Assembly (NCBI GenBank): GCA_003158475.1
Contig: PMJR01000092.1
Coordinates: forward strand, 4,175 to 57,869
Origin: Ignavibacteriota bacterium
Lineage (GTDB): Bacteria; Bacteroidota; Ignavibacteria; UBA10030; UBA6906
Length of the DNA: 53,695 bases
Direction of reading: 5' to 3'
Positions 41,474 to 51,497 of this stretch are shown here, piece after piece. The position numbers and the translations under genes are program-made. How positions within the stretch are numbered: the stretch's first letter is position 1; every line of letters begins with the position of its first letter. The notes beneath the pieces are model-generated. The model saw nothing but the letters and a program-made list of their open reading frames with translations. It had not been told where the DNA came from and did not search any database.

Positions 41474-42523
41474 ATGAACAGGACGAGGGCAATAATCGCG
41501 GGGGCGGTCCTCCTGGGGATCATCATCCTGGTGCTGCTGAACAACAGGGCCAATATCAGCGCGAAATCGCGCAATGAATTTCAGGGAGCGATACCCGTGA
41601 CGGTGGCCGAAGCCAGGTCGCAGAAGCTGTCGGAGACGCTGTCGCTCGTGGGAACGATCACCGCGATCAATGACGTTGCGGTCACGGCGGAGGTGGCGGG
41701 GAAAGTGACCGCCGTGCTCGCCGGCGTCGGAGACCACGTGAAGGCCGGCGCGCCCATCATTCAGATCGATGACGAGCTCAAGAAGGCGGCGTTCGAACAG
41801 GCCGAGGCGAACTATGACAGGGCGAAACGTGATTTCGACCGGTTCAAATCGCTCCGGGCCGAACAGTCCGCCACCGAATCACAGAAGGAAAACGCCTGGA
41901 CCGGCTTCAAGGTGGCCGAGGCGCAGTACATCGTGGCAAGGCGGCAGCTCCGTGACACGAAGGTCTGCACCCCGATCGCAGGCATCGTGTCCGCACGGAA
42001 CGTGGAGCCCGGCACCATGGTCAACGACCGCATGGTCGTCGCCAACGTCGTCGACGTCTCACGCCTGAAGGTGAAGCTGAACATCGCCGAAGGGGACGCC
42101 TTCAAGCTGAAGACCGGCGACCGGGTCGAAGTCACGACGGACGTCTATCCCGGCACCACGTTCGAGGGGCGGACCACCTCGATCAGCTCGAAGGCCGACG
42201 AAGGACACACGTACCCGGTCGAGATTACGATGGAAAACAGCAGGGAGCACCCGCTGAAGGCGGGGATGTTCGGACGCATCTCGTTCGTATCACTCGCACC
42301 GACCGAGGTCCTCGCCATACCCCGCGAAGCGCTTGTCGGGAGCATGAAGGATCCGCGTGTCTACGTTGTCGACGGCTCGCTGGCCAGGGTTCGCACGATC
42401 GTCGTCAACGGCGAAGCGGGAACCGACCTGATGGTCCTCTCCGGGCTCAGGGCGGGGGAATCGGTCGTCGTGAACGGGCAGAACAATCTCAAGGACTCGG
42501 TCGCGGTACAGGTACTGAAGTAG
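41474..42523 (+). CDS. Periplasmic adaptor (membrane fusion) protein of an RND-type efflux system
   Basis: The 349-residue protein has an N-terminal membrane anchor (about 6-22), a lipoyl half (VTAEVAGKVTAVLAGVGDHVKAG), a short coiled-coil hairpin (about 100-160), the second lipoyl half (KVCTPIAGIVSARNVEPGTMV), a beta-barrel and a membrane-proximal domain. This is the HlyD/AcrA family of RND type. It bridges an inner-membrane pump to TolC. No pump gene follows; the next gene encodes a TPR protein, so the partner must be elsewhere in the genome or lost. Confidence 0.92.
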   Translation: MNRTRAIIAGAVLLGIIILVLLNNRANISAKSRNEFQGAIPVTVAEARSQKLSETLSLVGTITAINDVAVTAEVAGKVTAVLAGVGDHVKAGAPIIQIDDELKKAAFEQAEANYDRAKRDFDRFKSLRAEQSATESQKENAWTGFKVAEAQYIVARRQLRDTKVCTPIAGIVSARNVEPGTMVNDRMVVANVVDVSRLKVKLNIAEGDAFKLKTGDRVEVTTDVYPGTTFEGRTTSISSKADEGHTYPVEITMENSREHPLKAGMFGRISFVSLAPTEVLAIPREALVGSMKDPRVYVVDGSLARVRTIVVNGEAGTDLMVLSGLRAGESVVVNGQNNLKDSVAVQVLK

Positions 42524-42581
42524 GCTCGCCAGAGGCCGCTCTTTTTCGCACTTCCGAAGGGAGGAGAGGAGAATCAAACCT

Positions 42582-43319
42582 ATGACTCTTCTGCTCGTGG
42601 CGTTGCTTGTGACCGGAGGGGGAGCCTCCGCCCCCCGCCGGATGGCAGGGGACGCGGAGTTCGAGCGGCTCGAATATGCCCGCGCGGAAGTAGCGTACGA
42701 TTCGGCCCGTGCGCTCACACCGGATTCAGCCGGGTACCTCTGGAGGCTCGGCCGGCTGTATGTCTGCATGGGAGACATGGCCGAGCATGATAAGAAGGAA
42801 GAGACGTACAGGAAAGCGGTTGCCTATGCCGAGAGGTGCATACGGGCCGACTCGAACATCGCCGCGGGACACACATGGAAAGCGGCGGCGCTCGGCAATA
42901 TCGCGATGTTTGAAGGGAGCAAGGGGAAGGTCCGGCTCTGCAACGAGATCAAACACGAGCTCGACCGCGCCCTCGCCCTCGATTCGCTTGATGACGTGGC
43001 ATACTCGATCATGGGATCGTTCTACCTCGCGCTCGGGAAAGTAAGCTGGATCGAACGGCAGCTTGCGTCTCTGTTTCTCGGCTCGCTTCCTGACGGGGGA
43101 TTTGAAGAAGCGGAGGCAGCGCTCCGCCGGGCAATCGCGATCGCCCCCGGGATGGTCCGGCACCGGTTCGAACTGGCGCTGGTCCTCAAAGAGGAGGGAA
43201 AAACGCGGGAGGCGATCGAAGCGTTCCGGGCCGCCTCGGAGCTCCCGACGACCGTTGCGAGCGACCCGCGAACGAAGGAACGGGCCCTCCGGATGGCACA
43301 AAAACTCGAAGAAGAATAG
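42582..43319 (+). CDS. Exported TPR protein resembling the RMD (regulator of microtubule dynamics) family
   Basis: The 245-residue protein has a short signal-like start (MTLLLVALLVTGGGASA). TPR helices follow: LEYARAEVAYDSARALTPDS, YRKAVAYAERCIRADSNIAAGHTWKAAAL, KHELDRALALDSLDDVAYSIMGSFY and AEAALRRAIAIAPGMVRHRFELALVLKEEGK. The spacing and the inserted KVSWIERQLASLFLG segment resemble the RMDN/FAM82-like bacterial proteins. It probably serves as a periplasmic scaffold. GAGGAG precedes the ATG, 58 bases after the adaptor gene. Confidence 0.8.
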   Translation: MTLLLVALLVTGGGASAPRRMAGDAEFERLEYARAEVAYDSARALTPDSAGYLWRLGRLYVCMGDMAEHDKKEETYRKAVAYAERCIRADSNIAAGHTWKAAALGNIAMFEGSKGKVRLCNEIKHELDRALALDSLDDVAYSIMGSFYLALGKVSWIERQLASLFLGSLPDGGFEEAEAALRRAIAIAPGMVRHRFELALVLKEEGKTREAIEAFRAASELPTTVASDPRTKERALRMAQKLEEE

Positions 43320-43339: not shown

Positions 43340-44269
43340 TCAGGCGGCCTGGAGTTCGGGGACGGCGACGCCGGCGGGAAGGGCGGGTTGTATTTCCGGA
43401 ATGGTGATGATGCGGTTCTCGATCGATTCCGGGCCGATGTTGATCAGGTTGAACGCTATCCCCCTGCCGGACCCGAGCAGGGATCCCCCTCCATTGAGGA
43501 ACTGCGTCCCGTTCCTCCCGTACTCCCCGTTCATATGCACGTGCCCGTGAAGAACGAGTGCGACGCCGCATTCCCTGAAGAGCTGGAAGAGCCTTTTCTT
43601 TCCATGCAGCTTCATCGTCCGTCGTTCGATGGCTCCCCAGACGCTGTGAAGCGTCCCCTCGGCGGGGGACGGGTACTTGTGAAAGTGGTGGTGAATCAAC
43701 ACGATCTTCCGCTTGCCGCTCAACTGCGGCGCCTCCAGCAGTTGCCTCAGCCTCCTGTATTGCCCGTCCCCCACATCACCGTTTGATCCGACAGGATTCT
43801 TCACCGCCGAATAGCGGGCAATCGAATTAATGCCGAAGAGGACGACGTCCCCCAGGACCTTGGCATACGGAAATGGCTTTGCGTGGGAACCGTACAGGCA
43901 ACGCTCGAACGCCTCATGGAAGTATCCGCGGAACTCATCCACCTGCGCGCCGTAGTCCGTGTGCCTGCACCGGCGGGGGAACGTGAGTATGTCCTCCGGC
44001 ATGTGGACGCCGCCGAACACGTCGTGGTTGCCGATGACAAGAGAGAGCTTCTCGGGAGACAGGAGCCCGCTGTTCCTGAAGAGCCCCCGGGCAATCTCGA
44101 ACTCCCTCCGGTCCGCATCGGCGGCAATATCCCCCGTCACCACCACGTGGTCAACGCGGCGCCGGCTGATTTCCTCCAGGAGCGTTCTCGCGCGTCGCAG
44201 GTTGAAGCGCTTGTGTTCCGCACTCAAGTGGAGATCCGAGATGTGGGCGATCGTGAAGGAATCCATCAT
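43340..44269 (-). CDS. Calcineurin-like metallophosphoesterase, candidate PlcP-type phospholipase C
   Basis: The 309-residue cytoplasmic protein has the full metallophosphoesterase set: D12 and H14 in ISDLHL, D47 in VTGDIAAD, N81-H82-D83 in IGNHD, a HHHFH block and GHVHMNG. The long insert between the fourth and fifth blocks and the absence of a signal peptide fit intracellular phospholipase C-like enzymes such as PlcP. Its ATG overlaps the stop of the glycosyltransferase gene (ATGA at 44266-44269). In Proteobacteria a glycosyltransferase plus PlcP pair swaps phospholipids for glycolipids under phosphate shortage. That role is inferred from context here. Confidence 0.82.
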   Translation of the reverse strand: MMDSFTIAHISDLHLSAEHKRFNLRRARTLLEEISRRRVDHVVVTGDIAADADRREFEIARGLFRNSGLLSPEKLSLVIGNHDVFGGVHMPEDILTFPRRCRHTDYGAQVDEFRGYFHEAFERCLYGSHAKPFPYAKVLGDVVLFGINSIARYSAVKNPVGSNGDVGDGQYRRLRQLLEAPQLSGKRKIVLIHHHFHKYPSPAEGTLHSVWGAIERRTMKLHGKKRLFQLFRECGVALVLHGHVHMNGEYGRNGTQFLNGGGSLLGSGRGIAFNLINIGPESIENRIITIPEIQPALPAGVAVPELQAA

Positions 44270-45435
44270 GCCGCCTTTCTTTTCCGGCTGCGGCCGCCGG
44301 ATGCGAGATCGACATATCCCGCGAAGAGCCGGTCGAATATCCGCTCCCAGGACTGCCCCGCGGCAAATGACAGGGCGGCGACACCCATCTTCATCCGCTC
44401 ATCGGGGCGGTCGATCATGAATCCGATCTTTGCAGCAAGATCCACGCCATCGCGCGGCTCGGCGAGCAACCCCGTGGCCCCCGACTTCACGAATCCGTAC
44501 GCGCCCCCCTCCCGTGCACACACCGGGGGGATCCCGGAGGCCATCGCCTCCAGCGTCACGTTGCCGAAGGTCTCCGTGGTGGAGGGGAACACGAACACGT
44601 CGCTCGACGCGTAGGCGGCCGCGAGCGCCGTCCCTCCCAGTTGTCCCAGAAACACCGCGCGTGGCATCAGAGCGGCGAGTTCTTCGCGGACCGGGCCGTC
44701 CCCCGCCAGGACGAAGAGCGCGTCACTCCTGCGGGCCATGATGATGCGGTACGCTTCCGCCAGCGTACGGAGGTCCTTTTCCCACACCAGCCGACCGGCA
44801 TAAAGGAGCACCGTCTTCCCTTCACATCCGTGAAGCTTCCGCCATTCCTCCGATCTGTACACGGGGTTGAACATCCCCGTATCCACGCCGTGCGGCAGGA
44901 ACTCCGTGGTCTCAAACCCGTGTGCACGGAGTTCCTTCCTGATCGGCTCCGACGGGACGTAGACCCGATCGCAGTCGTTGTACAGGTTCTTCAGGTAGTT
45001 CCAGCTGAATGTCTCGAGAGCCTTGATCTTGTAGTACTTGGCGTAGCTCGGGAAATGCGTGTGGTAGGTGGCGACAACCGGGATTCCCGCGCGCCGGGCG
45101 TACCGCACAGCCGCGTAGCCGAGAGGGCAGGGACTGTTGATGTGAATGACGTCGGGATCAAATGCGGAAAGCCGGGCTTCGAAGTGCTTCTGCCCGGGGT
45201 AGGCGAACCGGTAGTCCCTGTACAGGGGAAACCTGACCGAAGGAACTTCATACATCGGCACCGGCTGAGAGCCGGCGGGAGGAATGATCGGGGAGAAGAA
45301 TATGCTTTCGATCCCCGTCTCCACGAGAGCATCGGTCAGCCGGTAGAGCACGCGCGTCACGCCGTCGTGCCCCGAGCGCATCGTCCCCGCAAAGTACGCA
45401 ATACGGAGGCGGGGATGACCGGGCGTGATGTCCAT
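44266..45435 (-). CDS. GT4 glycosyltransferase, SqdX/MgtA/Agt-like
   Basis: The 389-residue GT-B enzyme has the features of lipid glycosyltransferases related to SqdX and MgtA: GTMRSGHDGVTRVL, HINSPCPLGYAAVRYAR, TYHTHFPSYAKYYK, a LPHGVDTGMFNP turn and the C-terminal donor site PSTTETFGNVTLEAMASG. It probably transfers a sugar to diacylglycerol at the membrane face. The ATG at 45435 follows AAGGAG. It overlaps the metallophosphoesterase gene and is preceded by a 27-residue membrane ORF and a direct-repeat regulatory site, which supports a shared lipid-remodelling job. Confidence 0.88.
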   Translation of the reverse strand: MDITPGHPRLRIAYFAGTMRSGHDGVTRVLYRLTDALVETGIESIFFSPIIPPAGSQPVPMYEVPSVRFPLYRDYRFAYPGQKHFEARLSAFDPDVIHINSPCPLGYAAVRYARRAGIPVVATYHTHFPSYAKYYKIKALETFSWNYLKNLYNDCDRVYVPSEPIRKELRAHGFETTEFLPHGVDTGMFNPVYRSEEWRKLHGCEGKTVLLYAGRLVWEKDLRTLAEAYRIIMARRSDALFVLAGDGPVREELAALMPRAVFLGQLGGTALAAAYASSDVFVFPSTTETFGNVTLEAMASGIPPVCAREGGAYGFVKSGATGLLAEPRDGVDLAAKIGFMIDRPDERMKMGVAALSFAAGQSWERIFDRLFAGYVDLASGGRSRKRKAA

Positions 45436-45507
45436 GGGAGGAGCTCCTTGTCTGTTCAGGGGGTTCCTTTCAGTAGTTTCCCGAGACTTCAGTGGATTCA
45501 TATGAGC

Positions 45508-45591
45508 TCACCTGGCTTGACGGAGCCCGTGCGTCAGAAATTCTGCAACAAACAGGAGGACACAGAGCGTGAAATAGAATGCGGATTTCAT
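45508..45591 (-). CDS. 27-residue single-span membrane peptide
   Basis: This ORF reads MKSAFYFTLCVLLFVAEF followed by a short basic tail (HGLRQAR). It has one membrane segment and a GGAGAGG ribosome site 6 bases upstream of the ATG. It lies between the predicted promoter (-10 at 45632-45637) and the glycosyltransferase gene, so it would be the first gene of that operon. No homologue is known to me. Translation is likely from the ribosome site, but unproven. Confidence 0.5.
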   Translation of the reverse strand: MKSAFYFTLCVLLFVAEFLTHGLRQAR

Positions 45592-45634
45592 GTTGCACCT
45601 CTCCATTGAACGTCTCCAATGTACCTGCCGGATC

Positions 45635-45678
45635 TTACGTGAGTGTTACGGGAATGTTATCAGTAGGTTAAATGATTC
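45635..45678. promoter_or_regulatory. Four 11-bp direct repeats, Pho-box-like regulatory site
   Basis: TTA recurs at 45635, 45646, 45657 and 45668, exactly 11 bases apart, within partly conserved 11-mers (the first two are TTACGTGAGTG and TTACGGGAATG). One helical turn spacing of direct repeats is typical of OmpR/PhoB-family response regulators. On the minus strand TAAGAT at 45637-45632 is a good -10 whose -35 zone is replaced by the repeats, as in activator-dependent Pho promoters. The site also sits just upstream of a plus-strand promoter, so it may control both directions. Confidence 0.6.
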
Positions 45679-45685
45679 CGGAGCG

Positions 45686-45714
45686 TTGAGGTTTCTTCAT
45701 GAATTCGTGATATT
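45686..45714 (+). promoter_or_regulatory. Sigma-70-like promoter of the glycosidase gene
   Basis: TTGAGG (45686-45691) and GATATT (45709-45714) are separated by 17 bases. Transcription would begin near 45721, about 13 bases before the ATG at 45734. The four-fold direct repeat ends 8 bases upstream of the -35 box. Confidence 0.55.
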
Positions 45715-45733: not shown

Positions 45734-48151
45734 ATGCAAAGACCCGAATTGATATCGCGCATGCTCGATCTCCTCGTGCGACGCATCGCCGCCGGCCTCA
45801 AAATTCCGGAACCCGCGCTCAGGATGTTTCAGGCGGCCAACGAGCTGAGCGGGCTGGACCGGAAGACACTTCCGACCGAGCTGATCCCTCTCAACACAAT
45901 GCAGATTTCGCGCGGGCTGCTGAACTTCACCCTCCTGCAGAGCCTGGAGGGGTGGGTCTTCCCGTACTGGGCGGAGAGACAATACGACCCGTCCGATGCC
46001 GGATTCATCCCCCGCTCCCATCTCGGACTTTCGATCAACATCACGCGGAGGAACTGGACTGCGGTCGGGACCCCCTCCTGCAGCGTCGAGCCTGTCGTGG
46101 ACCCCGCCGGAGCGGTGATGCCCCTGCGAAACCGGTGGACCTCCGAATGCTGGCTGAAGTGCGGCGACGACGTGTACTTTCCTTCACGCTCACGGAACGT
46201 GCGCCAGAGCCTGCGGGAAGGTCTTCCCATCGTCGCGACGGCATACGAATGCGGAGAAATTCGGCTGGAGCAGACTGTGTATGTGAACGGGACGACGCTC
46301 GTCCAGGAAGTCTCCGTGGCACACACCGGAAATACAATTGAGGATTGCACTCTCGCGTTCGCCATTCGCCCGTTCAACGCGGAAGGGGCATGCCTCGTCC
46401 GTGACATCAGGTTCGGCGGGGGGAACAACTCATTTATTCTTGACGGGACGGACCGGTTCATGCTCCCCGGTCCGCCGGATTCGGTCCACTGTTCGAATCA
46501 CGCAGGGGGAGACTCCGCACGTTCATTCGCGGCAAAGAGTCGGGAGGCCGATCCGTCCACCGGAGCGACATGTCCCGCCGGACTCGCAAACGGTTACGCG
46601 GCGTACGCGCTGAAGCTTGCACCGGGGGAAAGCCGGACGTTCCGCGCGACAATAAACCTGGAAACGAATCTCGACGGGAAGGACACCGGGCCCGGGGAAC
46701 TCCACGAGGCGGAGGCCGCGTGGAAATCCCTTCTCGGTTCCGGCACGGAGATCACGACGCCTGACGAGCACGTGAACACGGTTCTCCGCGCCTCTCTCTC
46801 GACGCTCCTGATGCTCACTGACGGCGATTCAATCACACCGGGACCCTGGACATATCACCAGTTCTGGTTCCGCGATGCAGCGGTCATGCTCAGGGCGCTC
46901 GATGCATTCGGATTCCACACTCAGACCCGCGCGGTCATACTCGCGTTCCCTTCCAGGCAGGAATCCTCCGGATACTTCCGTTCACAGCAGGGTGAGTGGG
47001 ATTCGAACGGACAGGCACTCTGGACAGCATGGCAGCACGCCGTCCTCTCTCAGGATACTTCGTTTGCTTCGGGATTGATCGATTCCCTCGGGAAGGGAGC
47101 CGGCTGGATTGCACGGAAGCGTCGCGAAGATGGGAACACGGGCATGAGTCCGGGACTCATGCCTGCAGGGCTGAGCGCGGAACACCTGGGTCTCGCCGAC
47201 AGGTACTTCTGGGACAACTGGTGGTCGGCTGCCGGGCTCCAGGCATATGCCAGGCTCTGCAGGCTCATGGGAAAGAGGGCCGAAGAGCAGAGCACACGGC
47301 TGGAATTAGAGGAATACAGAGCAGATATCGAGCGGGCCGTAGCCGCTGTCCGGAGATCGAAGGGAATCGAGGTGATCCCCGCGGGCCCTTCACGGGGTAT
47401 CGACTGCGGGATGATAGGGTCATGCGCTCCGTGGTACCCGCTCCAGCTGTACCCCCCCGACGACATGCGGATGCGCCGGACACTTGAAACGCTCGCCGAG
47501 CGCTATTTTCTCCACGGACTGTTTTTCCAGGAGTTCATACACTCCGGGAAGAACCCTTACCTTACACTGCAGATCGCTCAGGCGTGGCTCTATGCGGGGG
47601 ACCGGAAGCGGTTCTGGGACATGTTGACAGACGTCGTTCGCCACGCATCCCCCACATTGAACTACCCGGAGGCAATCCATCCTCTGACCGGAGGTGGAAC
47701 GATGGGAGACGGACACCACGGGTGGGCGGCTGCGGAAGTCGCGCTTGCCCTGCGCAACACTTTTGTCCGGGAGATGTGGACACCGGCGAACGACGTCCCC
47801 CTCCTGATTCTCCTCGGAGGATGCCCCCCCGACTGGTTTTCACCGGGACGGAATTTCGCCATCCGGCACGCCCCCGTCCCGGGGGGAGTGATCAGCATCC
47901 GGGCCGATGCGACCGAAGAGACGCTTTGTGTGGAGATCGATTACGAGAAACGATCGGAAGGGGGAGCGGAACAGTGGAGTTTACAGATACCCGGGGGAGG
48001 GTCCCGCATCGTGGTCAACGGGTCCGCAGCCGCCTCGGTGGCCGTTTCTGATCGTGAGACGTCCATCATGCTCATCCCCGCAGAAGGGCGCACACTTGTT
48101 TCGATCGAGCGGCACGCGGAGACACTTCCAGATCACCCCGCAAACCGGTAA
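45734..48151 (+). CDS. (alpha/alpha)6-barrel glycosidase-like protein, probably cytoplasmic
   Basis: The 805-residue protein lacks a signal peptide. A helical start is followed by a beta-sandwich (about 90-370). From about 375 there is an (alpha/alpha)6 barrel like those of GH15, GH63 and glycogen-debranching enzymes: YHQFWFRDAAVMLRALDAFG, GEWDSNGQALWTAWQHAVL, RYFWDNWWSAAGLQAYARL and HHGWAAAEVALALRNTFV. A small beta domain closes the protein. It should act on alpha-glucan-like or other glycosides; the exact family is not settled. The ATG at 45734 follows AAGGA. Its last 19 bases overlap the convergent kdpE end. Confidence 0.75.
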   Translation: MQRPELISRMLDLLVRRIAAGLKIPEPALRMFQAANELSGLDRKTLPTELIPLNTMQISRGLLNFTLLQSLEGWVFPYWAERQYDPSDAGFIPRSHLGLSINITRRNWTAVGTPSCSVEPVVDPAGAVMPLRNRWTSECWLKCGDDVYFPSRSRNVRQSLREGLPIVATAYECGEIRLEQTVYVNGTTLVQEVSVAHTGNTIEDCTLAFAIRPFNAEGACLVRDIRFGGGNNSFILDGTDRFMLPGPPDSVHCSNHAGGDSARSFAAKSREADPSTGATCPAGLANGYAAYALKLAPGESRTFRATINLETNLDGKDTGPGELHEAEAAWKSLLGSGTEITTPDEHVNTVLRASLSTLLMLTDGDSITPGPWTYHQFWFRDAAVMLRALDAFGFHTQTRAVILAFPSRQESSGYFRSQQGEWDSNGQALWTAWQHAVLSQDTSFASGLIDSLGKGAGWIARKRREDGNTGMSPGLMPAGLSAEHLGLADRYFWDNWWSAAGLQAYARLCRLMGKRAEEQSTRLELEEYRADIERAVAAVRRSKGIEVIPAGPSRGIDCGMIGSCAPWYPLQLYPPDDMRMRRTLETLAERYFLHGLFFQEFIHSGKNPYLTLQIAQAWLYAGDRKRFWDMLTDVVRHASPTLNYPEAIHPLTGGGTMGDGHHGWAAAEVALALRNTFVREMWTPANDVPLLILLGGCPPDWFSPGRNFAIRHAPVPGGVISIRADATEETLCVEIDYEKRSEGGAEQWSLQIPGGGSRIVVNGSAAASVAVSDRETSIMLIPAEGRTLVSIERHAETLPDHPANR

Positions 48152-48825
48152 CCGATCCCGGATTCAGTGACGATCAAAGAAGGGTTCGACGGATCATCTT
48201 CAAGCTTCTTCCGCAACTGCCCCACATAGACCCTTGTGTACTGCGATTCTTCCGCGTATGCCGGGCCCCACACCTGTTCGAGGATGTACCGGTGCGTTAG
48301 GACTCTCCCGGCATTCCTGACAAAGAGCGCCAGCAGCGCGTACTCCGTCCCCGTCATCTTGACGATCTCCCCTCCGCGTTTGACGACCCGTGCATCGAGA
48401 TCAATACTCACGGGACCTGCGACGATAGCCCCTTTCTCCTCCGGCCGCTGCCTGTGCCTGATGGCCGCCTTTATCCTGGCAACCAGCTCTCCCTGACGGA
48501 ACGGCTTTATCAGGTAGTCGTCCGCTCCGGCATTCAGGCAGGCAATCACATCCTGCTCCCCGTTGCGCACGGAGAGAATCAGCACAGGGACTGTTGAGCG
48601 GCTGCGTATCTGCTTGAGGACCTCAATGCCGTCCATATCAGGAAGACCGAGATCAAGGACCACGGCTTCCGGCCGGTCGGTGGAGGAGCGGGCAAGGCCC
48701 TCCTGGCCGTTTGGGGCCTGGTGGACTCTGAAGCCGCTTGATTCCAGAGTGAGTTGTATGAGACGCCTGATCTGAGGCTCATCCTCGATAACAAGGACCG
48801 GAGGTGCGGCAGTGGTAGCGCTCAT
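48133..48825 (-). CDS. kdpE: KDP operon response regulator KdpE
   Basis: The 230-residue OmpR-type regulator has a receiver domain (VIEDEPQIRRLIQ, phosphoacceptor D in VVLDLGLPDMDG, IKPF lysine) and a winged-helix DNA-binding domain (TGTEYALLALFVRNAGRVLTHRYILEQVWG, YVGQLRKKLE). Its ATG overlaps the kdpD stop (ATGA). It activates high-affinity potassium uptake when phosphorylated by KdpD under low potassium. Confidence 0.94.
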   Translation of the reverse strand: MSATTAAPPVLVIEDEPQIRRLIQLTLESSGFRVHQAPNGQEGLARSSTDRPEAVVLDLGLPDMDGIEVLKQIRSRSTVPVLILSVRNGEQDVIACLNAGADDYLIKPFRQGELVARIKAAIRHRQRPEEKGAIVAGPVSIDLDARVVKRGGEIVKMTGTEYALLALFVRNAGRVLTHRYILEQVWGPAYAEESQYTRVYVGQLRKKLEDDPSNPSLIVTESGIGYRFAG

Positions 48826-51497
48826 TGCGGTTCGGGAAGGGGATATTTCTCAAGCGGGAGACGTATCACGAACCGGAGCCCTCCGCCGGCACTGTTCTCG
48901 GCTCTGATGGTCCCCCTGTGGGCTTCGACGAACCCCCGTGCGATCGAGAGTCCGAGGCCGGTCCCCCCCGTCTTGCTCCCGGGCACGCGGAAGAACTTGT
49001 CAAACACCTTCTCCAGCACATCGGGGGGCAACCCGGGTCCGTTGTCCGCAATGCTGATCTCGCACTCGTTGCCGTCGCCGGACGCACGCACACGGATTTC
49101 CGACCCCGCCGGCGTGTACAACGACGCGTTAAGAAGGAGATTCGTGAGGACCTGTTCCATCAGGGCAAAATCGATCTTCACAAGGAGGATATCGGGGGGC
49201 GTGTCGATCTCCACCCGATAGCCCGAGAGCTCCGCCGCGGTCTTCCCGACCGCGGAATTGATCAGATCGCGGACATCGCACCAGTCGAGTTTCGGCCTGA
49301 TGAGTCCCGATTCCAGCCGCGTCATATCCAGCAGGTTTTCCACGAGCCTGTTCAACCGGCCCGCCGCTTCATGGATCTCCCCGATGAGCTCGCGGCGGGT
49401 CGCCGGCTGCTCTGAAACCCTTTCGTCGAGGAGATTCTCGGACGTCCCCATGATCGCCGAGAGAGGGATACGCATTTCGTGGGAGATCGAATTGAACAGC
49501 GTCTTGTAGAGCCGCTCCGATTCCTCGACGACGACCGCCTTCTTCGTGATCTCGTTCAGCGTCTCCCGTTCGATCGCGGAGGCGACCTGGCGTATGAAAT
49601 TCTCGAGAAGCGTCTCCTGATCGATCGAGAGCTTTGTCTCTCCCTTGAGCCTGACGCCGAGGACCCCGAGGGGATAGCGCGGACCGGACATGGGGTAATA
49701 CGTGGCTGTCGCGGAGGGGAGCGTATCGGTGAACCTCCCCGCCTGCTTCTCGTTCCAGTATACCCATGCAGCGACCCCGAGGTCTTTCTCGCTGACCGCC
49801 AGAGTGCTCGCAGGGTGAGGAGCGGTAAAAATGTCGCCATCGGTCTGTCCGAGACAGAGAACGACGTCGGCGTTGAAGAATTTTTTGATGTTGGCGATCG
49901 CCGCCTCGGCGACGGCATCCTTGGTCCGCGCGAGCGAAAGGTCCCTCGAGAGCGTGTAGAGGGCGACCGCCCGTTCTTCCCTGAGCCGGACTGCCCGCTC
50001 CTGCGCGCGCTTCCTCGAGGAGAGCACACCCAGGACAAGCGCGATGCAGAAATACATAAGCAGCATCAATATGTCCGGAACACGGCTGACGGAAAACGTG
50101 AAGACGGGGGGGATGAACAGGTAGTCCCACGCAATTGCGCTCAACGCGGCCGCCAGCAGAACAGGACCCATCCCGAACCGGAGCGGGAGGAGTGCGACGG
50201 TGAAGAGGAGGACAAGCGAGACCGTCTGGTATTCTATGATGTTGGCGAAGGGGAAGCACGCCGCGGCGACGAGGAGCGGTATGACGCCCGCACCGAGGTA
50301 CTGGCGCACGCCCGAATGGGCCTCCAGCAGGCTCGCGAGGCGCCTCTCGGGCTTCGTCTCACCCTCCCCTCCGATCACGTGCACATCCAGATCGCCGCTC
50401 TTATTGATCAGCTCCTGGAGGAGCCTCGCCGACTTCTGAAATGTCCCCTGCCGGGGCTTGCCGATCAGGATCTGTGTGCAGTTTTCCTGACGGGCGACAC
50501 GTATGAGCGCGTCGCCGACGTTCTCATCCGCGGTCGAGACAATCTCGGCCCCCAGTTCTCGCGCCAGCTTTATGTTCTTCGCCAGGAGGTCGTTTTCGAC
50601 GGCGCTGGGGGTTGCAGACGACTCGACATGCACGGCCACCCAGGAGGCATCCTGAGTGAAGGCCATCCTTCGCGCCCACCGTATGAGGTGAACCGAATGG
50701 GGGCTCCCGCTCATCCCCACAAGCAGGCGCTGGCCGGATTTCCACGGCCCCTGGATCCTGTTCGTCCGCATGTAGTCGCGGAGCTGCCGGTCGACGCGCT
50801 CCGCGGTGAGACGGAGGGACATCTCGCGCAGGGCGGTGAGGTTCCCCATGCGGAAAAAGCTCTCGATCGCGCGCTTCGAACGGTCGGGCGTATAGACTTT
50901 CCCCTCGGCAAGCCGGGCAAGGAGCTCGTCGGGAGATATGTCGATCAGCTCGACTTCATCGGCACGCTCGAGGATCGAATCGGGGACCGTCTCGCGCACG
51001 ATCGATCCGGTGATCTGCGCCACCGCGTCGGCCCTGCTCTCGATGTGCTGGACATTGAGGGTCGCGTAGACGTCGATCCCGCTGTCGAGGAGCTCCAGAA
51101 CGTCCTTGTAGCGTTTCGTATGCCTGGATCCCGGCGCATTTGAATGTGCGAGCTCGTCGACGAGGACCAGTTTCGGCTTGCGGGCGAGTATCCCATCCAG
51201 GTCCATTTCCTGGATCTGCGTTCCCTTGTACTCGACAGTTTTCCGGGGGAGGATGGTGAGGCCTTCCAGGAGTGCCTCGGTCTCCCGGCGACCGTGCGTT
51301 TCCACGACCCCCACGACCACATCAATACCGTGGGCCTTCGCGTCGTGGGCCCCCTTGAGCATGTCGTATGTCTTCCCCACGCCGGCGGACATGCCGAAGA
51401 ATATCTTCAGCTTCGCCTTTGACTTGTTCTCCTCCGCCCGCTTGATAGCATGCAGCAGGGCATCGGGATCGGGGCGATTGTCTTCGGGAGAACCCAT
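48822..51497 (-). CDS. kdpD: Potassium sensor histidine kinase KdpD
   Basis: The 891-residue protein has the KdpD N domain with a Walker A-like loop (FFGMSAGVGKTYDML), VVGVVETHGR and LVDELAHSNAPGSRH. A Usp-like domain (about 245-370), four membrane segments (about 400-500), a GAF-like domain, HisKA (ISHEMRIPLSAIMG) and an ATPase domain (NLLLNASLYTPAG, DNGPGLPP, GTGLGLSIARG) follow. It senses potassium and cell status and phosphorylates KdpE. It lies downstream of kdpB and a porin gene, so the whole set is probably one regulon. Confidence 0.95.
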   Translation of the reverse strand: MGSPEDNRPDPDALLHAIKRAEENKSKAKLKIFFGMSAGVGKTYDMLKGAHDAKAHGIDVVVGVVETHGRRETEALLEGLTILPRKTVEYKGTQIQEMDLDGILARKPKLVLVDELAHSNAPGSRHTKRYKDVLELLDSGIDVYATLNVQHIESRADAVAQITGSIVRETVPDSILERADEVELIDISPDELLARLAEGKVYTPDRSKRAIESFFRMGNLTALREMSLRLTAERVDRQLRDYMRTNRIQGPWKSGQRLLVGMSGSPHSVHLIRWARRMAFTQDASWVAVHVESSATPSAVENDLLAKNIKLARELGAEIVSTADENVGDALIRVARQENCTQILIGKPRQGTFQKSARLLQELINKSGDLDVHVIGGEGETKPERRLASLLEAHSGVRQYLGAGVIPLLVAAACFPFANIIEYQTVSLVLLFTVALLPLRFGMGPVLLAAALSAIAWDYLFIPPVFTFSVSRVPDILMLLMYFCIALVLGVLSSRKRAQERAVRLREERAVALYTLSRDLSLARTKDAVAEAAIANIKKFFNADVVLCLGQTDGDIFTAPHPASTLAVSEKDLGVAAWVYWNEKQAGRFTDTLPSATATYYPMSGPRYPLGVLGVRLKGETKLSIDQETLLENFIRQVASAIERETLNEITKKAVVVEESERLYKTLFNSISHEMRIPLSAIMGTSENLLDERVSEQPATRRELIGEIHEAAGRLNRLVENLLDMTRLESGLIRPKLDWCDVRDLINSAVGKTAAELSGYRVEIDTPPDILLVKIDFALMEQVLTNLLLNASLYTPAGSEIRVRASGDGNECEISIADNGPGLPPDVLEKVFDKFFRVPGSKTGGTGLGLSIARGFVEAHRGTIRAENSAGGGLRFVIRLPLEKYPLPEPQ

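Follow-up and report, generated by a model that had tools for sequence, protein, structure and literature searches.

The closest described counterparts of the locus analysed here are the plcP-agt lipid-remodelling systems of S. meliloti, A. tumefaciens, Phaeobacter, Pelagibacter, P. aeruginosa and Methylosinus, in which a Pho box precedes a short operon for a cytoplasmic metallophosphoesterase (PlcP) and a GT4 glycosyltransferase (Agt). The P. aeruginosa enzyme Agt1 has been validated (PMC8528852), and an Agt-type enzyme makes alpha-glucosyl-diacylglycerol (PMC8231724). The Agt clade carries an aspartate in its FPSxTDTFG donor motif, which corresponds to Asp256 of GTcp, and more than 90% of GTcp activity is lost in the D256E mutant (PMC8231724). 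Outside Proteobacteria, PlcP-type remodelling has been published for Flavobacteria, and Fjoh_0541 of Flavobacterium johnsoniae lies within the phoBR operon (PMC4796936, PMC8115612); since flavobacterial PlcP is already known, the existence of phosphate-driven lipid genes beyond Proteobacteria is in itself no novelty. As for the regulatory element, direct repeats of 11 nt are the general form of PHO boxes (PMC4415409), and the cyanobacterial box (CTTAACCT) is built of 8+3 bp with an 11-bp period (PMC1906773).

Here we describe a locus in a stretch of 53,695 nucleotides from an Ignavibacteriota bacterium (the window, on G000:C119), whose host genome comprises 3.75 Mb in 153 contigs. The source is a peat-bog bacterium, and the closest named relatives of the window are Ignavibacteriae MAGs labelled 'fen'. 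Our literature search found no paper on such a phosphate-starvation lipid module in Ignavibacteria. The features of the locus (Table 1) make it, in our judgement, a probable PhoB-controlled phosphate-starvation module of the plcP-agt kind, in which another phosphoesterase takes the place of PlcP.

Table 1 Features of the locus, with positions in the window
Feature	Position	Strand	Remarks
TPR/RMD-like protein, convergent with the MPE gene, recurrent neighbour, module membership uncertain	42582..43319	+	
Cytoplasmic calcineurin-like metallophosphoesterase (MPE), 309 aa, Pfam Metallophos	43340..44269	-	Metal-site motifs SDLH, GDI, GNHD, HHHF, HGHVH
GT4 lipid-glycosyltransferase candidate, Agt-related, 389 aa	44266..45435	-	Pfam Glyco_transf_4 and Glycos_transf_1
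27-aa single-helix membrane peptide MKSAFYFTLCVLLFVAEFLTHGLRQAR, first ORF of the operon	45508..45591	-	Conserved across 10 family genomes in position and character
Pho box (four xTAAC/xTAAG units, 11-bp period) and -10 TACATT	45618..45670	-	Predicted promoter of the small ORF, GT4 and MPE
Predicted promoter of the divergent gene: TTGAGG (45686-45691), 17 bp, GATATT (45709-45714)	45686..45714	+	15 bp from the box edge
Glycosidase-type protein, 805 aa, weak similarity to GH15 oligosaccharide amylases	45734..48151	+	Divergent from the Pho box

Results

The operon and the pst genes share a Pho box

The fourfold 11-bp TTA repeat that a sequence-only reading of this DNA had placed at the promoter was found at 45635-45670 (TTACGTGAGTG-TTACGGGAATG-TTATCAGTAGG-TTA), 5' of the 27-codon ORF, GT4 and MPE genes, and was the single TTA-N8 array of its kind in the window, against 0 in 100 dinucleotide shuffles of it. 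Genome-wide, the bare pattern is borderline, since its two exact matches compare with one for a reversed control; the array is significant because its other genomic copy lies at the pst operon and because the same box recurs in relatives. This second copy (G000:C11:17595-17630) stands 5' of a porin-like gene, behind which come pstS, pstC, pstA, pstB and two phoU genes, so that a motif scan of the genome did place the repeats near pst/pho genes, as the same reading had anticipated, and phosphate control is thereby supported. The pstB gene of this host operon is broken by two N (L045 3826-3827, G000:C11).

At both promoters, four xTAAC/xTAA units are followed by a hexamer TAYATT whose first base lies 14 nt beyond that of the fourth TAA (TACATT at the operon, 45618-45623; TATATT at pst), a spacing that is kept in nearly all relatives. 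Because this spacing is common to the operon and pst, we assign the predicted -10 element to TACATT, and TAAGAT, initially taken for the -10 box, becomes the fourth repeat unit. Searched in five genomes with up to three mismatches, an extended motif including the -10 gave 22 matches and its reversed pattern 0; in the host genome it matched three times, at the GT4/MPE operon, at the pst promoter and 255 bp upstream of the latter's box. That upstream element is a second complete Pho box (L045 8834-8886; G000:C11:17833-17885) between a formyltransferase-like gene and the porin gene, and a similar pair occurs in G001.

A weight matrix found 58 sites in the examined loci, compared with 1.0 for column-permuted matrices. 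We trained a second matrix on 12 boxes at pst and other promoters, leaving out the tested GT4/MPE boxes (two of the 12 came from the tested neighbourhood in G014, but belong to other genes). It detected a box at 21 of the 22 GT4/MPE promoters of the order, with no more than 1 in 200 mononucleotide shuffles scoring as well, and the sole miss was the MPE gene behind GT4 in G045. Upstream boxes were also detected with this matrix at about nine MPE genes of other families in the class. Moreover, GT4 or MPE genes lie near pst genes in several relatives, and in G058 one of them adjoins a gene for a PhoB-type response regulator, an ortholog of which is present in the host genome (G000:C28:59051-59731) with an adjoining histidine kinase gene.

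Judged by its sequence, the array is thus a Pho box of the familiar xTAACA-N5 type, and the suggestion that this lineage uses a different Pho-box sequence did not hold: its core resembles that of the cyanobacterial repeats and of the B. subtilis box (TTAACA-N5), with which it shares the xTTAAC/xTAACA core, the 11-bp period and an array of three or four units. What sets the Ignavibacteria element apart is that it has four units, that the distance to the -10 is fixed at 14 nt, and that a second promoter faces away at 15–16 bp.

GT4 is the best Agt match in the genome

The GT4 and MPE genes overlap by ATGA (44266-44269, minus strand), as in the sequence-only reading, and are a GT4/phosphoesterase pair in a non-proteobacterial lineage. 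For comparison with Agt, we used the validated P. aeruginosa Agt1 from a plasmid record, where it lies beside PlcP. Among 22 candidates in the host genome, the GT4 of the locus alone matched Agt1 at E < 1e-15, and each of ten genomes, including the host, yielded one protein at this level (13–32 candidates); G014 was the exception, with two such proteins, of which the locus copy was the second. The GT4 profile aligned with Agt over 322 columns (hhalign E 1.3e-34), and the catalytic histidine is present in 11 of 11 members (YHTHF, aligned with IHTRF of Agt1). The donor motif, in contrast, reads FPSTTETFG or a near variant, with glutamate (Glu288 in the GT4 of the locus) in 11/11 members, where Agt1 has FPSLTDTYG; with Glu in all members against Asp in the Agt clade, we consider GT4 an Agt relative rather than a strict Agt. 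MshA, another GT4 enzyme, uses glutamate.

A GT4 paralog, 57–58% identical to the GT4 of the window, occurs as a second copy elsewhere in G010 and G014, and also in G004, G018 and G020, genomes that have neither MPE nor the glycosidase-type gene. An apparent GT4-MPE fusion (L028, 648 aa, G005) was rejected, its join containing an undetermined residue X from the assembly.

The phosphoesterase is related to CpdA and is not PlcP

The metal-site motifs of the MPE are intact in all 14 members checked. PlcP was represented by the proteins of P. aeruginosa (L151, beside Agt1) and S. meliloti (L150, adjoining an acyl-homoserine-lactone synthase gene and a LuxR-type gene), whose identity is supported by the 46.6% that they share, in agreement with 46% in PMC8528852. 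The MPE had no significant BLASTP match to either PlcP (E 3.9 for P. aeruginosa, 0.59 for S. meliloti), and hhalign aligned its profile with PlcP in pieces of 36 and 76 columns. The same profile aligned end to end with the cAMP phosphodiesterase CpdA (E 9e-9); the MPE of the window matched no cAMP-phosphodiesterase model, its relatives did so weakly (E 2e-7 at best), and the MPE scored below every curated family cut-off, those of the cAMP-phosphodiesterase and nucleotidase families included. Taken together, the missing PlcP match, the full-length CpdA alignment and the unreached cut-offs make the MPE, at the level of sequence, a separate subfamily on the Icc/CpdA side, related to CpdA but unplaced. 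A firm grouping with cAMP or nucleotide phosphodiesterases, raised earlier as the outcome that would speak against lipid remodelling, was thus borne out only in part, by the CpdA alignment but not by the cAMP-phosphodiesterase cut-offs. Since homology to PlcP does not extend beyond the superfamily, a phospholipase activity of the MPE is a guess from context.

That context is as follows. The MPE is present in 21 of 60 relatives, and in GT4-bearing genomes its gene usually adjoins or overlaps GT4, pointing to a pathway that both serve. In four order-level genomes the MPE occurs but GT4 and the glycosidase-type gene are absent; the Pho box there is clear in three and marginal in one, so the MPE would seem to work alone as well. 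A gene for a HAD-family phosphatase follows the MPE gene in G031, G045 and G058, as expected if a phospho-alcohol were released. In view of the order-wide Pho box, the tie to GT4 and the HAD phosphatase, the most likely role predicted for the MPE is to free phosphate from phospholipids or their products.

Other assignments of the MPE were discarded: LpxH, for which the genome has a separate LpxH-like gene, the MPE being present in just 21/60 relatives; the anti-phage DS9/DS8 models at the top of its NCBIfam list, whose scores were far under cut-off; and plasmid matches, of which those in Ensifer had an uninformative context and the one in Roseomonas is a different metallophosphoesterase (27%). 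On the Roseomonas marmotae plasmid (L136 2860-5921), this 27% relative lies beside genes for a CDP-alcohol phosphatidyltransferase and a diacylglycerol kinase-family protein, in a lipid setting. Weaker MPE homologs (E ~1e-45), one per genome, occur in many sampled genomes of g101 and g106, two genera of the Bacteroidota family f27; these homologs are possibly a separate subfamily.

The operon begins with a conserved membrane peptide

The 27-codon ORF is preceded by GGAGAGG, which resembles a ribosome-binding site, and in ten genomes of the family the first ORF of the operon encodes a peptide of 26–35 aa that is hydrophobic in one stretch and basic at its tail. Comparison of G001 with the others among four genus members gave pS values of 0.64–0.79 against pN values of 0.09–0.14, a pattern that the other two frames of the ORF did not have. 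The extra small membrane peptide of the sequence-only reading is therefore real, and its substitution pattern indicates that it is under purifying selection, a finding that is new here. In the order-level genomes G043 and G029, GT4 lies directly behind the box.

A glycosidase-type gene diverges from the Pho box

In 15 of 15 loci, the glycosidase-type gene faces away from a Pho box about 50–150 bp upstream (some of these boxes are weak), and the opposite side of the 15 boxes is variable, being occupied by GT4, MPE, pstS, a TPR gene or others. Its promoter (TTGnnn-N17-nATATT) starts 15–16 bp from the Pho-box edge in 12 of 15 genomes. When presence and absence of the three genes were compared across the 60 relatives of the order, a set uncorrected for kinship, orthologs of the glycosidase-type gene were found in exactly 17 genomes, namely those with both GT4 and MPE (that of G016 is a fragment). 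Since the genera g22, g25 and g33 each contain one member with all three genes and a sister with none, the three seem to come and go together. The co-occurrence and the fixed promoter spacing of this divergent gene are both new here.

The family of the 805-aa protein is undescribed. TIGR01577, a GH15-type oligosaccharide amylase model, has weak similarity to 13 of 14 members (best E 6e-11, far under cut-off); no Pfam family exceeded its threshold, GH15 reaching E 0.056 at best in 2/14 members; a PDB search with the protein gave no match; and GH15, GH37 and GH63 proteins received no hhalign support as relatives. Glu483 and Glu646 are invariant in the family and are candidate catalytic residues. 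Predicted structure models had pLDDT values of 41 and 37 (37 being the mean for the 805-aa protein), too low for a fold comparison, the underlying alignments being thin. In another class of the phylum, homologs of the protein are encoded away from any GT4, MPE or pst genes, and the family is therefore broader than the module.

Outside the module, the window at 42523-42582 is missing a 3.1-kb RND-type efflux transporter gene, which in sister genomes (L025 2215-5238; L027 455-3613) lies between a membrane-fusion gene and the TPR gene; the joins at 42539/42564 are near-clean, and the difference is either a deletion or an assembly collapse. On the other side (48133-51497), overlapping KdpE-like and KdpD-like two-component genes adjoin the module in the genus.

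Discussion

Comparison of genomes established a Pho box and a gene arrangement that recall plcP-agt: a short operon encodes a cytoplasmic metallophosphoesterase and a GT4 that is the best match to Agt1 in its genome, with the same four-base gene overlap as in P. aeruginosa. The Ignavibacteria module differs in that its MPE comes from another branch of the superfamily, its GT4 has Glu for the Asp of Agt, the glycosyltransferase gene comes before that of the phosphoesterase (GT4-MPE, against PlcP-Agt), and it has two further parts, a membrane peptide that is conserved and a glycosidase-type gene that diverges from the operon. Since the MPE failed the PlcP comparison and GT4 lacks one Agt feature, we do not file the module as plcP-agt; the proposed equivalence thus stood for the overall Agt match, and fell short at the donor-motif residue and at the phosphoesterase. 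The flavobacterial systems (Dokdonia MED134; F. johnsoniae Fjoh_4577 and Fjoh_0541) likewise represent phosphate-controlled lipid genes in Bacteroidota, but in those systems PlcP is given as an orphan (pf12850), and the Pi-induced glycosyl transferase is pf04101, not a GT4.

From sequence and context we infer PhoB binding, the enzyme functions and the lipid chemistry as follows. At low phosphate, phosphorylated PhoB would bind the four repeats, stand in for a -35 element and turn the operon on. The MPE would remove phosphate-bearing groups from phospholipids or their products, by which phosphate would be freed and diacylglycerol left, directly or not, and GT4 would add an alpha-linked sugar to the diacylglycerol. 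The membrane peptide might position one of the enzymes at the membrane or regulate it there, and the glycosidase-type protein might trim or recycle the glycolipid, or supply sugar. With the MPE and GT4 steps as predicted, the module would therefore work in the manner of plcP-agt, its MPE doing what PlcP does there.

One competing explanation accepts the Pho control but takes the MPE for a scavenging phosphodiesterase or nucleotidase, which would simply free phosphate from glycerophosphodiester, cyclic or other nucleotide substrates while GT4 glycosylates diacylglycerol from elsewhere. The end-to-end alignment with CpdA would fit it, as would the PDB matches of the MPE (Rv0805, SbcD and the phosphohydrolases 2dxl/2zo9, which we take to be GpdQ-type glycerophosphodiesterases) and the MPE genes with a Pho box, found in four order-level genomes that lack GT4 and, beyond the order, in further families of its class. 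We nevertheless hold it to be rather unlikely, as the MPE reached no cAMP-phosphodiesterase or nucleotidase cut-off and as the usual adjacency or overlap with GT4 suggests a common pathway. To a similar degree we doubt that the divergent glycosidase-type gene is a mere neighbour with a housekeeping role outside the Pho module: it has an ordinary -35/-10 of its own, and its homologs in the other class lack module and pst neighbours, but within the order it is confined to the 17 of 60 genomes with GT4 and MPE, differs inside g22, g25 and g33 together with them, faces away from a Pho box in 15/15 loci and keeps its -35 at 15–16 bp in 12/15.

Improbable is a role of GT4 and the glycosidase-type protein in making and editing a surface glycan without phosphate that takes the place of a phosphate-rich polymer, in the manner of Bacillus teichuronic acid. 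GT4 weakly matches many GT4 families, TuaC among them (83 bits, cut-off 550), but the curated model that it matches best is one for a lipid glycosyltransferase (163 bits, cut-off 480), its best functional match is Agt1, and glycan genes, such as those for a polymerase or a flippase, are not conserved in the cluster. That the repeat arose by chance in AT-rich intergenic DNA has a negligible probability, the single hit of the genome-wide reversed control to the bare fourfold TTA pattern notwithstanding, given the conservation of units and -10 spacing across the order and their presence at pst.

Beyond the preferred reading of a plcP-agt-like module, it is a tentative proposal, and one that we would not yet favour, that Ignavibacteria built a lipid-swap machine of their own, not inherited from the proteobacterial one, from a non-PlcP MPE, a Glu-type GT4, a tuning peptide and a new cytoplasmic glycosidase family, with a two-way Pho-box promoter coupling the making and breaking of glycolipid to phosphate. 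If the preferred reading is right, lipid swapping under phosphate stress would not be one inherited pathway, its phosphate-releasing step having been filled by an unrelated enzyme branch, and two new parts on the same switch would come with the module: a membrane peptide under Pho control and a glycosidase-type family not described before. With a different enzyme branch at work in another phylum, surveys based on PlcP alone would then undercount the trait in soils and peat.
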